From Gemmatimonadota bacterium (lineage in GTDB: Bacteria > Gemmatimonadota > Gemmatimonadetes > Longimicrobiales > Gaopeijiaceae), in NCBI GenBank assembly GCA_015664885.1, contig DQPL01000122.1:62001-126000 (forward strand): a stretch of DNA of 64,000 nt. Reading direction: 5' to 3'. The notes under the pieces were generated by a model. That model was not told the origin of the DNA, did not search any database, and was given only the letters and a program-made list of their open reading frames with translations. This document shows positions 1,428 through 25,309 of the stretch, one piece after another. A program made the position numbers and the translations under genes. Position 1 is the stretch's first letter, and each line of letters starts with the position of its first letter.

Positions 1428-1819
1428 TGGAACATGGATTGCGTACCAGGCTCGTAACCGCCGTGATGCTCGTAGTGGTCTTCGCGTCAGGCGTGTTGCT
1501 GGGCGTCGCAGGCGACGGCAACTTGGTCGCCGCTGAAAGCCAGGGTAAAAAGCAGAGCATGTACGAACAAGTCGGACCGACGCCCGATCAGATGGTCTTC
1601 ATCGACTCGATTGTGAAGGACCATAGCGCCGGCATGCGGGCGCTGCACGATGAGTTTCGTAGAGCGTACTACCCGAGCTACCGGGAGCTCATCGAGCATA
1701 CGCGGGGTGCGATCAAGGAGGTCTTCTCGGAGGAGCAGGCTGCGGAGTACCAAGCGTTGCTCAATGACTTCGATCGGCGAAAGGCTGCCGAGCGAAAAGA
1801 GGCGGAAGACCGGGACTAG
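1427..1819 (+). CDS. Small periplasmic helical protein, Spy/CpxP-like layout
   Basis: A 130-residue protein starting at ATG 1427, which overlaps the preceding stop. A hydrophobic segment at residues 12-30 could be a signal anchor or signal peptide. The remainder is strongly helical and charged, with a run like RALHDEFRRAYYPSYRELIEHTR and a C-terminal Lys/Glu-rich helix. Small helical periplasmic proteins of the Spy/CpxP/CnrX type are often encoded with ECF sigma and anti-sigma genes and sense envelope stress or metals. The resemblance here is in length and architecture only. Its place between the anti-sigma-like gene and a TolC-like gene supports an envelope role. Confidence 0.5.
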   Translation: MEHGLRTRLVTAVMLVVVFASGVLLGVAGDGNLVAAESQGKKQSMYEQVGPTPDQMVFIDSIVKDHSAGMRALHDEFRRAYYPSYRELIEHTRGAIKEVFSEEQAAEYQALLNDFDRRKAAERKEAEDRD

Positions 1820-1823
1820 CTCC

Positions 1824-3119
1824 ATGACATCGATAAGCCGTACCGCGGCCTGCGTACTCACAGGCCTGGCGTTTTTGGCGCCCCACTTCGCCGCCGCGCA
1901 GCAGACGATCAGCCTCGACGAGGCCGTTCAGCGGGCCTTGGGTCGCAGCACACAGATGCTGCAGCAGGACCAAATGGTGGACAACGCAGCACTGGCTGAG
2001 CGCTCGGCGTGGGGCGCGTTCCTGCCCAATCTGAGCATGAGCACAAGCGGCTCTTTGCGCAGCGCCAACGTTCTCGACCCGAATACCGGGCAGATCGTGC
2101 CTAGCAGCTCGGACTCGTACTCGGCGGGAGTTTCGGGCCGCGTGGATATTTTTCGGGGCGGTAGCCGTTTCGTCGAGCTCGACCGAGCGGACGCGGACAT
2201 GCAGGCAGCCGTGGCACGTCGAGAGAGCCAGCGCTTCGCCGTCGTGCTCCAGACCAAGAACTTCTTCTTCGCTGCGCTGCGACAGGCCGACCTGCTCGAG
2301 GTAGCTCTGCGGCGCGTCGAACAGGCGCAACAGAACCTGGAAATCGTCAGGGCGCGTTCGCAGGTGGGTCGTGCCACCATCTCCGATTCCCTCAGGGCGC
2401 GCCTGGACGTTGTAAACGCCCGGCAGTCCGTGCTGCAAAACGAGAACGCGCTGCGCGCGGCTCGTTTCTCCCTCGGGCGGCAGGTCGGTGAGGCTGCGCC
2501 TGTGGTCCCGGCTCGCCCCTCTGACCTGGCGCCCTCGGAATTGCCGCTCAGTGAGGCGGAGATCATGCGCTTGGCCGAAGACGCGTCACCGACTGTAGTC
2601 GCTTCCGCATACGCGACGCGATCAGCCGCCGCTTCGGTGCGGTCGGCACGGACCGGCTATTTGCCGTCGCTATCGATGAACAGCGGGTATAACTGGAATA
2701 ATCAGGAACGTTCATTCGATGGTGGACGCACGAGCTGGAGCCTGGGCTTGAGCCTGTCCTACCCCATTTTCAACAACTTCCAGCGCGAATCATCTCTTGA
2801 TCGGGCGCAGTTCTCCCAGAGGGTCGCGCGGCTGCAAGAGGACGACTCTCGACTCGCCGCCCGACAGGAAGCGGACGCGGCATTGTACAATCTGCGCACC
2901 GCTGAGCGGGCCATCGAGATTGCTCAGGAGGCGGAGCTCGTAGCAGGGGAGGACCTCAGAGTGGTCCGCGAACGGTATTCCGTAGGCGTAGCGACCATCC
3001 TCGACGTTTTGATTAGCCAGAATGCGGCCGATCAGGCCAGCGTCGACGTCGTCACGTCACGATATGACTATGTGCTGGCTCGGGCTGAGCTCGAGTCGAT
3101 TCTGGGGAGGGTGTTGTGA
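1824..3119 (+). CDS. TolC-family outer membrane efflux protein
   Basis: A 431-residue protein whose start at ATG 1824 is chosen because a signal peptide follows at once (hydrophobic core, then AAAQQ near residue 25). The mature protein shows the internal repeat of TolC-type channels: [14 protein letters not shown] near the start and a second long helical repeat beginning around residue 230 ([15 protein letters not shown]), plus Gln/Arg/Ala-rich coiled helices that build the periplasmic tunnel. It forms the outer-membrane exit duct for a tripartite pump. Its GTG neighbour overlaps the stop codon, and the following three genes encode the ATPase, adaptor and permease of such a pump, so the four very probably work as one complex. 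Confidence 0.88.
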
Positions 3120-19507: not shown

Positions 19508-21355
19508 TTAAGCGGTCGCGCTGACCCCCGCCTCACGAAGCACCCGCAGTGCGACGTCCACGCGTCTGCTAGGCGCGCTGAGGTGATACCCCTGCACATG
19601 CGGCCGTACAGCCTCGATCATCTCGAGAGCGATGAGCACCCCTTCCTCGAGCGCTGCCTCTGGACCGCTTTCCTGGGCACCGCGCATGCGCTCCACGATT
19701 GCGTCCGGCACTACCACGCCGGGGACCTCGTGCGCGAGAAATTCCGCGTTCCGCAGGCTCAGGAAGGGCCAAATCCCCGCGATCATAGGGATGCTTCCGC
19801 TTCCCACGCGTTCCAGGAAGCGCTCCAGCGCTTCTGGGTCGAAAATCGGTTGTGTGACCGCGAAGTTGGCCCCGGCTTCGACCTTGTACCGGTAGCGTTC
19901 GACTTCGCGCTCTTGGTCGACCGCGCCGGGGTTGGCCGCGACGCCTTGTACGAACTCCGTGGGCGCCCCGATCGAGTTCCCGCCAGGGTCGATGCCGCGG
20001 TTCAGGCCGTTCATGACGTTGGTCATTCCGATGGAGTCGATGTCGAAGACGGCAGTCGCGTCGGGGTAGGGGCCCTGAAGCAGCGGCTCGCCGCTGACCA
20101 CCAACACATTTCGAATGCCTGCCGCGGCGGCTCCCAGCAGGTCAGAGATCATGCCGAGCATGTTGCGGTCCCTACAGGTGTAGTGCACCAGCGATTCAAT
20201 ACCGACCTCGTGTTCGACGATCAGCGCCGCGGAGAGAGCGCCCATTCGACTCACCGACCTCGGATTGTCGACAATCGCAAGTGTGTCGACTCCCGCGACC
20301 TTCAGGCGGCGGGCGGGCTCGATCAGCGCGGCCCGGTCCCAGCCGCGCGGCGGAATGATCTCTACCGATACAACCGGCTCTCCCCGAGCCAGCTTCCGAC
20401 CCCATGCGGAGCGAACCTCGAGCGGCACGGCCTCTGTCGCTATGTCCACGCCTGCCTCCGCCACGGGCTCAGCGGTGGCGACGGTCTTGGGTTGCAGAGA
20501 CGCTACAGCCTTACGGATCTGCTTGACGTGGTCCGGGGTCGTGCCGCAGCACCCGCCGACGAAGCGCACGCCGGCGTCGATCATGCGCTTCGCGTATTGC
20601 GCCATGTATTCGGGGCTGGCCAAGTACATCTTCCGGTCTCGCACGGTGCGGGGCAGGCCGGCATTAGGCTGTGCGATCAGCGGCAAGTTGGTCGCCTCCG
20701 CCATCTCCTCGATGGCATCGAGCATGACTGCTGGGCCGACCGAACAATTCAGGCCGACGACATCGACTCCGAGGTCGGTGAGCTCGCGCGCGATCAATGT
20801 CGCATCGTTGCCATAAGCGGTTTTGCCGCCCGGGCCCACCGTCATTTGCGCGATAATCGGTAGGTCGCTCAGCCCTCGCACGGCTCCGACGGCGCATCCG
20901 ATCTCGCTCATGTCCGAGAACGTCTCAAGCACGAACCCATCGACCCCGCCCTCGAGCAGCCCGTTCACCTGTCTTCGGAAGAAGTTGACCGCCTCTGAAC
21001 GTGCTGTTGGGCCCCATGGTTCGATGCGAATGCCGAGAGGGCCGATGGCACCGGCCACGCTCGCGCGTTTGCCCGCGGCGGCCCGCGCCAGTTCCGCCGC
21101 CGCCCGGTTGATCTCTTCGGTCTGCTCGGCCAGCCCATACGACGAGAGCTTCACCGGGTTGGCGCCGAAGGTGTTGGTTTCGAGGATCTCGGCGCCGGCC
21201 GACACATACTCGTCGTGGATCTGACGCACGAGCTCGGGTCGGCGCCTATTGAGCTCATCGTAGCACACGTTGACGAACACGCCGCGGCCGTACAGCAGTG
21301 TACCCATCGCGCCGTCGAATACGTGAACGAGTCCGTCCTCGATCAATGCCCTCAC
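19508..21355 (-). CDS. Homocysteine S-methyltransferase / methylenetetrahydrofolate reductase fusion
   Basis: A 615-residue two-domain enzyme like Bacillus YitJ. Residues 1-290 are a homocysteine methyltransferase domain ([27 protein letters not shown], and zinc ligands Cys in GLNCSVG and [12 protein letters not shown]). Residues about 320-610 are a canonical MTHFR ([33 protein letters not shown]). It could make 5-methyl-THF and transfer methyl groups to homocysteine, or feed MetH. GTG 21355 overlaps the MetH stop (GTGA), so it is the second gene of the metH operon and shares its leader control. Confidence 0.9.
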
Positions 21356-24300
21356 GGAGTGTCTCCTTCCGGATCGTAACCGAGATTGGGCGACAACCAG
21401 AGTTCCGCCTCGGCAATGCTCCAGCCCTTCCGCCCGGCGTAGTCTTCCACCTGATCCCGTCCGATTCGGCCCACTCCGAAGTACGCCGCGTCCGGATGCG
21501 ACAGGTACCAACCACTCACGGATGCTGTAGGAGTCATCGCGAAGCTCTCGGTGAGCCGGATTCCGAGAGAGTTCTCGACGTCTAGCAGCTCGAAGAGTGT
21601 TCGCTTCTCGGTATGGTCCGGACAGGCGGGGTAACCGGGGGCCGGTCGGATCCCTCTGTACGCCTCTCGGACGAGCGCGTCGTTCGACAGCTCTTCCTTC
21701 GCAGCATACCCCCACAGTTCGCGGCGTACCCGCTCATGCATCGACTCGGCCAGCGCCTCCGCGAGTCGGTCCGCTACCGACTTCACCAGGATCGCACCGT
21801 AGTCGTCGTTGGCGTCCTCCAACTCACGAGCCATCTCCTCTACGCCAATGCCGGCTGTAACCGCGAAACCACCGACCCAATCGTGCTTCCCGGAATCCGC
21901 CGGGGCGACGAAATCCGCCAGGCAACGGTTCACCCGCCCATCCTTCGCGAACTGTTGGCGAAGATGGTGAAGCACGGTGAGGCGTTCTCTGCGGCCAGCG
22001 TCGGTGTACAGCTCGACGTCGTCGCCGATCGCGTTTGCCGGGAAGAAGCCGCTGACGGCGCGTGCGCTCACGCGACCATCTGCGACGAGACGGTCCAAGA
22101 GTGCCTCGGCATCGGCCTTGAGGCTGCGAGCCTGTTCGCCGACGATCTCATCGTCGAGGATCGCGGGATACTTGCCCGCCAACTCCCAGGCCTGGAAAAA
22201 GGGCGTCCAATCGATGTACTGCCGCAGTTCCGCGATCTCCACGTCGAAGACATGAACCCCTTGCTGGAACGGTGCTGGCGGGTCGTATGATGACCAATCC
22301 AGCTGCTCGGCCCGCTCTCGAGCCACCGCGATGGGCAGCAACTCGGTTCGAGCGGTGCGCTGCGCACGCCGCGCACGCTCGGACTCATAGCCGGCCCGCA
22401 CCTCGGCGATGTAGGTATCTCGGCCTTCGTCGTCCAACAGCGCAGACACGACTCCCACCGCTCTGGAGGCGTCCAGCACGTGCACAGTGGCCCCGTTGTA
22501 GTGGTGCTCGATCTTCACCGCGGTGTGCACCTTAGATGTCGTCGCGCCGCCAATCAGGAGGGGCGTATCAAAGCCCGTCCTCTCCATCTCCTTGGCGACG
22601 TGCACCATCTGAAGGAGTGACGGTGTGATCAGCCCCGACAGGCCGATCACATCGACCTGCTGCGCGCGTGCGGTCTCCAGGATGCGCTCGGAGGGCACCA
22701 TGACCCCGAGGTCGATCACCGAGTAGCCGTTACACTGCAGCACGACACCAACGATACTCTTGCCGATATCGTGCACGTCACCCTTGACGGTGGCGAGCAG
22801 CACCGTGCCCTTGTCGGTCGTGCCCGACTTCTCGGCCTCCAAGAACGGCGTGAGGTAGCTCACCGCCTTCTTCATCACCCGCGCGCTCTTCACAACTTGT
22901 GGCAAGAACATGCGACCGCTGCCGAAGAGGTCGCCGACGACGTTCATGCCGTCCATGAGCGGCCCCTCGATCACATCGAGCGCCAGCGGCAACTCCCGGC
23001 GCGCTGCTTCTGCGTCCTGCTCGACGAATTTGTCGATGCCTTGCACGAGCGCGTGCTTCAGCCGCTCGTGCACATCGAGCTCGCGCCACGTCAGGTCCTC
23101 GTCGGTGCGGTGTTTGGTGGTGCCGGACCGCGTTAGGGCGATCTGAGTGAGTGTCTCCGTCGCGTCCGGAGATCGTACGAAGAGCACATCTTCCACGGGC
23201 TCGAGCAGATCGGCTGGAATCTCGTCGTAGACCGGTAGTGCACCCGCGTTCACGATGCCCATGTCGAGTCCTGCGTTGATCGCGTGGTAGAGAAAGGCCG
23301 TGTGCATGGCCTCTCTCACCTCTGGGCTGCCGCGGAAGGAGAACGACACGTTGCTGATGCCGCCGCTCGTCAGCGCGTGTGGACACGATTTCTTGATTTG
23401 TCGGACCGCCTCGATGAAGCGGATCGCGTATTCGTCGTGCTCTTCGATTCCGGTCGCCACGGCGAAGACGTTGGCGTCGAAGATGATGTCCTCGGGAAGG
23501 AAACCCTCTTCGTCGACGAGGATCCTGTAGACGCGCTCACAGATCTCCACCTTGCGCTCCAGTGTGTCCGCTTGACCCTCTTCGTCGAACGCCATGACCA
23601 CTGCTGCCGCACCATACCGGCGTACGGTGCGGGCTCGTTCACGGAACGCGTCTTCGCCGTCCTTCAGCGAAATCGAATTCACGACGCCCTTGCCCTGAAG
23701 GGTCTTGAGGCCGGCCTCGATCACCTCCCAGTCGGAGGAGTCCACCATGACCGGGATGCGCGCGATCTCGGGCTCGGACGCCAGCAGGTTGAGGAAGCGC
23801 GGCATCGCCGCGACTCCGTCGAGCAGCCCCTCATCCATGTTCACGTCGATGATCTGCGATCCGCCTTGAACCTGCTGAAGCGCCACCTCGATCGCGGTCT
23901 CGTAGTCTTCTTCCTTGATGAGGGTGGCGAATCGCCTCGAGCCCGAGACGTTTGTGCGCTCGCCGACGTTCACGAAAAGCGATTCGGGACCGATCGTGAG
24001 CGGCTCCAGACCGGACAGCCGAGTCCGCCGGGGCGGCTCGGGGACCGTGCGTGGCGGACGGCCGACGACGACATCTGCGATCGCCCGGATGTGATCCGGG
24101 GTCGTGCCGCAGCAGCCACCCACGATGTTCAGGAATCCTGCGTCCACGAAGTCCGACGTCACGCTCGCCATGTGGTCCGGCGTGTCGTCGTATTCGCCGA
24201 ACTCGTTGGGAAGCCCGGCGTTGGGATAGCAGCTGATCGGCAGCCGAGCCACGTCGGACAGCTCTTCGAGATGCGGTCGCAGCTGATCGATTCCGAGCGC

Positions 24301-25077
24301 GCAGTTCAGCCCCACGCTGAGCAGGCCGCTTTCCCGACCCGGTCCGGGATGCACGCCGTGAGCGATGGCGTTGTAGAACGCCTCGGGTGTCTGTCCGGAG
24401 AGCGTACGCCCGCTCTGGTCGGTGATCGTCCCGGACATCATCACCGGTATGTCGACCGCCACTTCGGCGAGCACCAGAGAGAGCGCGTACAGTGCCGCTT
24501 TCGCGTTCAGCGTGTCGAATGCGGTCTCGACCAGTAGGATGTCCACGCCGCCTTCGAGTAGGCCATGCGCCTGTTCCTGATACGCCCGGACGAGCTCATC
24601 GAACGTGACGTTGCGCGCGCCGGGGTCGCCCACGTCGGGCGAGATGGACGCCGTGCGGTTCGTGGGGCCGAGCGCGCCGGCAACCCAACGAGTACGGGAT
24701 GGGTCGCGCGCGTCGGCGGCGTCGGCGGCTTCGCGCGCGAGACGAGCGCCGGCGCGATTGAGCTCACGCGCGATCTCTTCCAGCCCATAGTCCTCGAGCG
24801 AAATTCGGTTGGCGTTGAACGTATTGGTCTCGATCAGGTCCGCGCCCGCCTCCAGGTATTCGGCGTGGATATCGCGGATCAAGGCGGGCTGCGAGAGGCA
24901 CAGGATGTCATTGGCTCCGAAAAGATCGGAGTCGGTGTCGGCGAAGCGTTGACCCCGGAAGTCCTCTTCACCGAGCTCGTGGCGCTGAATCATCGTGCCC
25001 ATCGCGCCGTCTAGGACGAGGATCCTGTGCTGCAACTCTTCCCGAATCAAACCGGCCCGGCCAGCGGATGACGCCAT
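21352..25077 (-). CDS. metH: Cobalamin-dependent methionine synthase
   Basis: A 1241-residue enzyme with all four MetH modules in order: homocysteine domain ([32 protein letters not shown]), pterin domain (about 365-620, [14 protein letters not shown]), cobalamin domain ([14 protein letters not shown] with the cobalt-ligating His) and C-terminal SAM-binding activation domain ([29 protein letters not shown]). It methylates homocysteine from 5-methyl-THF. The start is set at ATG 25077, with GAGGA 6 bases upstream. A longer frame back to 25182 exists but would translate the terminator and aptamer structures. The downstream fusion gene is coupled to it. Confidence 0.97.
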
Positions 25078-25089
25078 GGATTCCTCGAC

Positions 25090-25123
25090 AAAAAAAGGCC
25101 CCTCGCGACGGTGCGCGACAGGG
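25090..25123 (-). terminator. Intrinsic terminator in the metH leader
   Basis: On the minus strand, CCCT (25123-25120) and CGCG (25117-25114) pair with CGCG (25107-25104) and AGGG (25103-25100), with a 2-base bulge and a 6-base loop. GGCC and seven consecutive T bases (25096-25090) follow. The T run ends 13 bases before the metH ATG. A terminator between promoter and start codon implies attenuation. Confidence 0.75.
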
Positions 25124-25127
25124 CGGT

Positions 25128-25200
25128 GGTCTTTTAGCTCGTTCGCGGGCTCGTCACACTGGACGGGTCCCGCGGGCCGCAATACTCCTCAAATCGCCCC
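25128..25200 (-). promoter_or_regulatory. SAM-II/SAM-V-like riboswitch candidate upstream of metH
   Basis: Read on the minus strand: GGGC, GATTTGAGGAGTATTGC, GCCC (a 4-bp P1-like stem), then a stable inserted hairpin (CGCGGG 25174-25169 with CCCGCG 25149-25144, plus an inner CGTC/GACG), then GCTAAAAGACC (25138-25128). GAUUU, UAUUGC and GCUAAAA are the invariant parts of the SAM-II core. The pseudoknot pair that is CC...GG in the known metX aptamer is GG (25188-25187)...CC (25129-25128) here, a compensatory change. It abuts the leader terminator. The inserted hairpin and short P1 are atypical. Confidence 0.6.
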
Positions 25201-25309
25201 AGATCTACTCAGAGGAAACTAGCGTCACTCACGGGGAGCGCCAAGTTACAGGAAACCCGCGACGCTCTGCTCCGCCATTGGCGAACGAATCCAGCCGACG
25301 CTGCTCGAA

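Follow-up and report, generated by a model that had tools for sequence, protein, structure and literature searches.

A SAM-II-type riboswitch variant with an inserted hairpin proposed for the metH leader of a Gemmatimonadota bacterium

Standard annotation sees no riboswitch before metH in a Gemmatimonadota bacterium of the Gaopeijiaceae, yet a SAM-II-type element precedes this gene in most sampled genomes of the family. The window, by which we mean the whole stretch of DNA analyzed, comprises 64,000 nt of assembly GCA_015664885.1 (contig DQPL01000122.1, positions 62,001 to 126,000). In window coordinates, the leader of metH occupies the minus strand from 25203 to 25090 and reads, from 25203, TCTGGGGC, GATTTGAGGAGTATTGCG and GCCC, then the hairpin GCGGGACCCGTCCAGTGTGACGAGCCCGC, GAACGA, GCTAAAAGACC, ACC, GCCCTGTCGCGCACCGTCGCGAGGGGCC, TTTTTTT and GTCGAGGAATCC, up to the ATG of metH at 25077, 12 bases past the T run. 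On the same strand, GATTTGAGGAGTATTGC spans 25195-25179 and GCTAAAAGACC spans 25138-25128. A sequence-only reading of this DNA had described a SAM-II-like aptamer joined to a terminator, and all the leader parts that it named, including the seven T, were confirmed on the minus strand. The open reading frame (ORF) for a homocysteine S-methyltransferase/methylenetetrahydrofolate reductase comes next after metH, in a presumed operon; its NCBIfam match begins at residue 130, and the true start is probably internal to the ORF. The features, all on the minus strand, are as follows.

25239..25244, minus strand: putative -35 box TTGGCG, too weak to pass the cut-off of the generic scan for promoters
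25216..25221, minus strand: putative -10 box TAGTTT after a 17-nt spacer (pattern TTGG-N17-TANNNT)
25196..25199, minus strand: P1 5' strand GGGC (25200 is one more G), in pairs with changes on both sides
25178..25195, minus strand: aptamer core GAUUUGAGGAGUAUUGCG, with the triplex strand GAUUU and the P2a and P2b 5' strands
25188-25187, minus strand: P2a 5' strand GG, within the core
25182-25179, minus strand: P2b 5' strand UUGC, within the core
25174..25177, minus strand: P1 3' strand GCCC, with the same both-side changes
25145..25173, minus strand: inserted hairpin P3 (GCGGG...CCCGC), folding at -15.8 kcal/mol; very variable in sequence in relatives, in which hairpins persist
25128..25143, minus strand: AAC linker, GCUAAAA and P2a 3' strand; the P2a pairs covary
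25138-25132, minus strand: GCUAAAA, that is, the P2b 3' strand and the ligand-side A run, invariant in 25 leaders
25129-25128, minus strand: P2a 3' strand CC, in covarying pairs
25120..25125, minus strand: CGCCCU, terminator 5' arm and complement of GGGGCG at 25200-25195; possible antiterminator
25090..25124, minus strand: intrinsic terminator GCCCTGTCGCG-CACCGT-CGCGAGGGGC, then C and seven T; stem at -14.6 kcal/mol
25083..25086, minus strand: Shine-Dalgarno-like GAGG, outside and beyond the terminator
21352..25077, minus strand: metH, vitamin-B12-dependent methionine synthase (NCBIfam NF007024, 2006 bits; TIGR02082, 1692 bits)
19508..21715, minus strand: bifunctional homocysteine S-methyltransferase/methylenetetrahydrofolate reductase ORF (NCBIfam NF006396, 683 bits)

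The leader is no chance pattern: it was found once in the whole source genome, and about 40 relatives have the same arrangement before metH. All of the 25 metH leaders aligned from the window's family carry the element. In this alignment, with the window among its members, the core blocks GAUUU, UAUUGC and GCUAAAA were invariant or nearly so and in that order, and 28 columns were invariant; 98.5% of cells were paired, three pairs were changed on both sides, the covariation score was reached by none of 500 shuffles, and structures slid along the alignment paired in just 17-50%. P1 pair 8/28 was CG, UG or UA, P2a pair 16/88 was GC or AU, and P2a pair 18/86 was CG or UA, with the exception of the window and its sister species, where it was A/A; the window's P2a has only 2 bp, the third pair of the helix being this mismatch. 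P2b did not vary across the leaders, and the covariation support therefore comes from P1 and P2a. A larger set of 83 distinct sequences (family leaders together with canonical and intermediate forms) was fitted to R1, a covariance model made from leaders of the window's family only, whose structure holds P1 and not P2. Here 98.2% were paired, with 46 both-side-changed cells versus 11.7 in shuffles; pair 5/32 was GC, UA or CG, pair 8/29 was CG, UG or UA, and pair 17/126 was GC, AU, CG or GU. The minimum free energy of the whole leader was ordinary (z 0.8), a measure that does not test a pseudoknot. Conserved blocks and covarying P1 and P2a pairs were thus obtained from the alignment of relatives that the sequence-only reading had proposed. 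Its claim of real pairing in the pseudoknot held up through this covariation; its claim of a special change from CC/GG to GG/CC did not, because GG is already present in 14 of the 20 aligned canonical SAM-II loci of the phylum.

Database models were silent on the window. In cmscan against Rfam 15, no family reached its gathering score there (36 bits for SAM-II), no SAM family appeared at E up to 10 in the window leader or in the metH loci of 19 relatives, and SAM-V (RF01826) gave no match at E up to 10 in the window and 39 relatives' loci. RF00521 (SAM_alpha) matched over its full length, though below threshold (17-23 bits), at 10 of 20 loci; none of the 10 has the hairpin, and no competing SAM family appeared. 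Across the phylum, RF00521 was above its cut-off in 221 of 395 genomes; the source genome was without any such match. This silence does not amount to absence, because conservation and reciprocal models were positive. R1 matched 180 of the 395 genomes, including loci independently found by RF00521, and the two models agreed on places in other families (e.g., G371:C49, G382:C45, and G013:C1). A second model, R2, was built solely from canonical loci outside the window's family (20 loci); its best match in the window was 25198-25175 (E 4e-4 in 64 kb; next best, E 3), where it aligned just the 5' half, the 3' half scoring 5 bits. Nearly all of 50 metH loci of the window's family were matched by R2 at E below 0.01, and hairpin-less family loci were matched over the full length (E down to 1.6e-13). 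The sub-threshold RF00521 matches and the R2 matches in hairpin-less forms thus arrange canonical, short and P3-bearing elements in a graded series. Conservation, covariation and reciprocal covariance-model searches agree on the SAM-II-like aptamer that had been read from the letters; of the two outcomes named beforehand as jointly speaking against it, the Rfam miss came true and the lack of conservation in relatives did not, the element being strongly conserved.

P3 folds in the P3-bearing leaders examined despite strongly differing sequence and a length of about 14 to 47 nt, and in 25 of 40 leaders no more than 5% of shuffles folded as well as the native hairpin (some rows of the shuffle table begin at an earlier TTGC and hence include extra front bases). 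The linker after P3 (AAC, two bases, GCUAAAA) resembles the canonical SAM-II linker, and P3 therefore appears to have taken the place of the 5' part of the canonical P1-P2 linker. In a tree of MetH proteins, 31 P3-bearing leaders fell into one group (support 87/95), and two further P3 rows (genera g3 and g20) lay outside it; one row (L064) is misplaced, its protein probably having been taken from the wrong gene. The series from canonical through short to P3-bearing forms is a natural experiment on a pseudoknot riboswitch gaining a hairpin.

The same series blurs the boundary between SAM-II and SAM-V. The window form shares with SAM-II (the metA motif, RF00521) the order of parts, the GAUUU/UAUUGC/GCUAAAA core, the P1 and P2 pseudoknot, a methionine gene downstream, a terminator after the aptamer and reciprocal model matches within the phylum. 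It differs in having a P1 of 4 bp rather than the 6 of the phylum's canonical form, a P2a of 2-3 bp in the variant, no Rfam model match and a P3; SAM-II is described as having no P3 (PMC6061858), a trait from which the window and its P3-bearing relatives depart. In the SAM-V crystal structure, P1 has 4 pairs, a P3 stem-loop follows straight after P1, A-minor adenines are present and P2a has 2 pairs (PMC6061858). Against that structure, the 4-bp P1, the P3 immediately following the P1 3' strand, the adenines (an AA linker) before the P2 strand and the short P2a (2 bp) of the window form would all suit SAM-V (metY) or a relative of it. We nevertheless hold that assignment to be quite improbable: set against the matches of SAM_alpha at hairpin-less loci, the SAM-V model found nothing, P3-less intermediates connect the element to the phylum's canonical SAM-II, and P3 forms occur mainly in one MetH clade. 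SAM-V, moreover, acts on translation by hiding the ribosome site, with the Shine-Dalgarno sequence inside P2a, whereas the window form has a transcription terminator and its GAGG (25086-25083) lies beyond it. Relatedness through hairpin-less forms and the grouping of 31 P3-bearing leaders in one clade therefore argue for a new structural variant of SAM-II. Judged by sequence, the P3 form is a true, conserved and Rfam-invisible member of the SAM-II lineage, in a comparison for which published SAM-II alignments were covered only partly with respect to optional hairpins. A broader proposal, to which we give slightly less than an even chance, is that SAM-II rebuilt the SAM-V architecture in one family while keeping its terminator platform, and that SAM-II and SAM-V are the ends of one continuum and not separate classes.

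The terminator hairpin runs from 25124 to 25098 and is followed by C and by the T run at 25096-25090. The generic promoter and terminator scan reported nothing at the leader, and missed the terminator probably because of a bulged G in the stem. Nearly all P3-bearing leaders have a hairpin after the aptamer, and several canonical SAM-II loci in the phylum also show a hairpin with a T run. The sequence-only reading had held that SAM-II elements mostly block ribosome binding; this was mistaken, as published work links SAM-II for the most part with terminators (PMC1273637, PMC2258182, and PMC6061858). Such terminators being common, the part of its claim of an unusual design that concerned the terminator falls away, leaving the inserted hairpin and the short P1 as the only unusual features. 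A SAM-II aptamer with predicted transcription termination is also described for Sinorhizobium meliloti metZ, a different gene in a different phylum, with no P3 mentioned in the part of that source considered (PMC9373788). In five leaders of genus g8 (L034, L037, L044, L048, and L052), the post-aptamer hairpin is without a clear U run and ends in UUCG, and the expression platform may therefore differ within the group. Control of ribosome access by this hairpin in most members, in place of termination, would fit those genus g8 leaders and a canonical SAM-II element of another family (L012) that lies a few bases from the metH start codon; it is unlikely given that, in the window, GAGG is not part of the hairpin and there are seven T in the U run.

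By its sequence, the leader combines SAM-II homology, conservation, P1 and P2 pseudoknot pairing, P3 and a terminator-like hairpin with a U run directly after the aptamer, and we consider it highly probable that it works as a SAM-II-type OFF riboswitch that senses SAM, in a structural variant that gained P3 after P1 and ahead of the pseudoknot's 3' half. The leader RNA would be expected to bind SAM, since it retains the conserved blocks that surround the ligand pocket. With SAM bound, P1 and P2 would be locked and the terminator hairpin would be free to form, so that plentiful SAM would halt transcription before metH. SAH-responsive switches in other bacteria also target methionine-cycle genes, and metH makes methionine from homocysteine; these points, together with the shortened P1 and the added P3, could speak for a SAM-II-derived aptamer with a changed ligand, such as SAH or another metabolite of the SAM cycle. 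We regard this as very improbable, since the SAM-pocket blocks of SAM-II and SAM-V (GAUUU, UAUU, and GCUAAAA) are kept, in an alignment with 28 invariant columns.

A weaker part of the proposal concerns how the SAM-II-type switch would avoid termination. Without SAM, the P1 5' strand GGGGCG might pair with the CGCCCU terminator arm and so block termination. This pairing was calculated at -13.6 kcal/mol in the window, and 27 to 31 of 36 leaders adopted the antiterminator fold when the RNA ended before the 3' arm. The two strands showed no coevolution: leaders paired no better with their own tails than with swapped tails, and shuffled tails matched in composition folded in this way in 76% of cases versus 29 of 36 native ones. 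The antiterminator, with support no better than base composition predicts, is therefore kept as a mere possibility.

The putative promoter would start transcription a few bases before P1, where the start has been described for SAM-II (PMC1273637), and the TTGG-N17-TANNNT pattern recurs upstream of many P3-bearing leaders with almost constant spacing. An ORF from TTG at 25182 is open into metH, and the leader might on that account be read as coding for an N-terminal extension of MetH. This reading was rejected, and its probability is negligible: in 27 of 34 relatives the leader is interrupted by an in-frame stop, in a frame that varies among them, and changes in the leader track base pairs and not codons.

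A scan of the genomes of 84,980 species for the core and the P1 3' strand returned 15 loci, all in named Gemmatimonadota or groups within, and none of the papers searched mentions SAM-II alongside Gemmatimonadetes or Gemmatimonadota. One genome of the window's family (G034, genus g3) has a canonical SAM-II before metX and the P3 form before metH; canonical elements before metX in genus g3 were also seen at L141 (201-258) and L142 (201-258). The metH leaders of genus g2 (L123-L133 and L137) carry a very short SAM-II-like form with a P1 of 3-4 bp and a short linker, for which one of three tested had an Rfam match, below threshold. No element match was obtained before metH in genera g5 (L169 and L170) and g19/g140 (L172 and L173), where the switch may therefore have been lost or have diverged too far. 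In the metH leaders of family f4 (L012, L015, and L018), canonical SAM-II stops a few bases before the start codon (GCCAGGATG), which suggests that metH there is under translation control. L006 contains a pair of canonical SAM-II-like elements (1511-1569, minus strand, and 1791-1848, plus strand), separated by about 220 bases, which apparently serve divergent genes.
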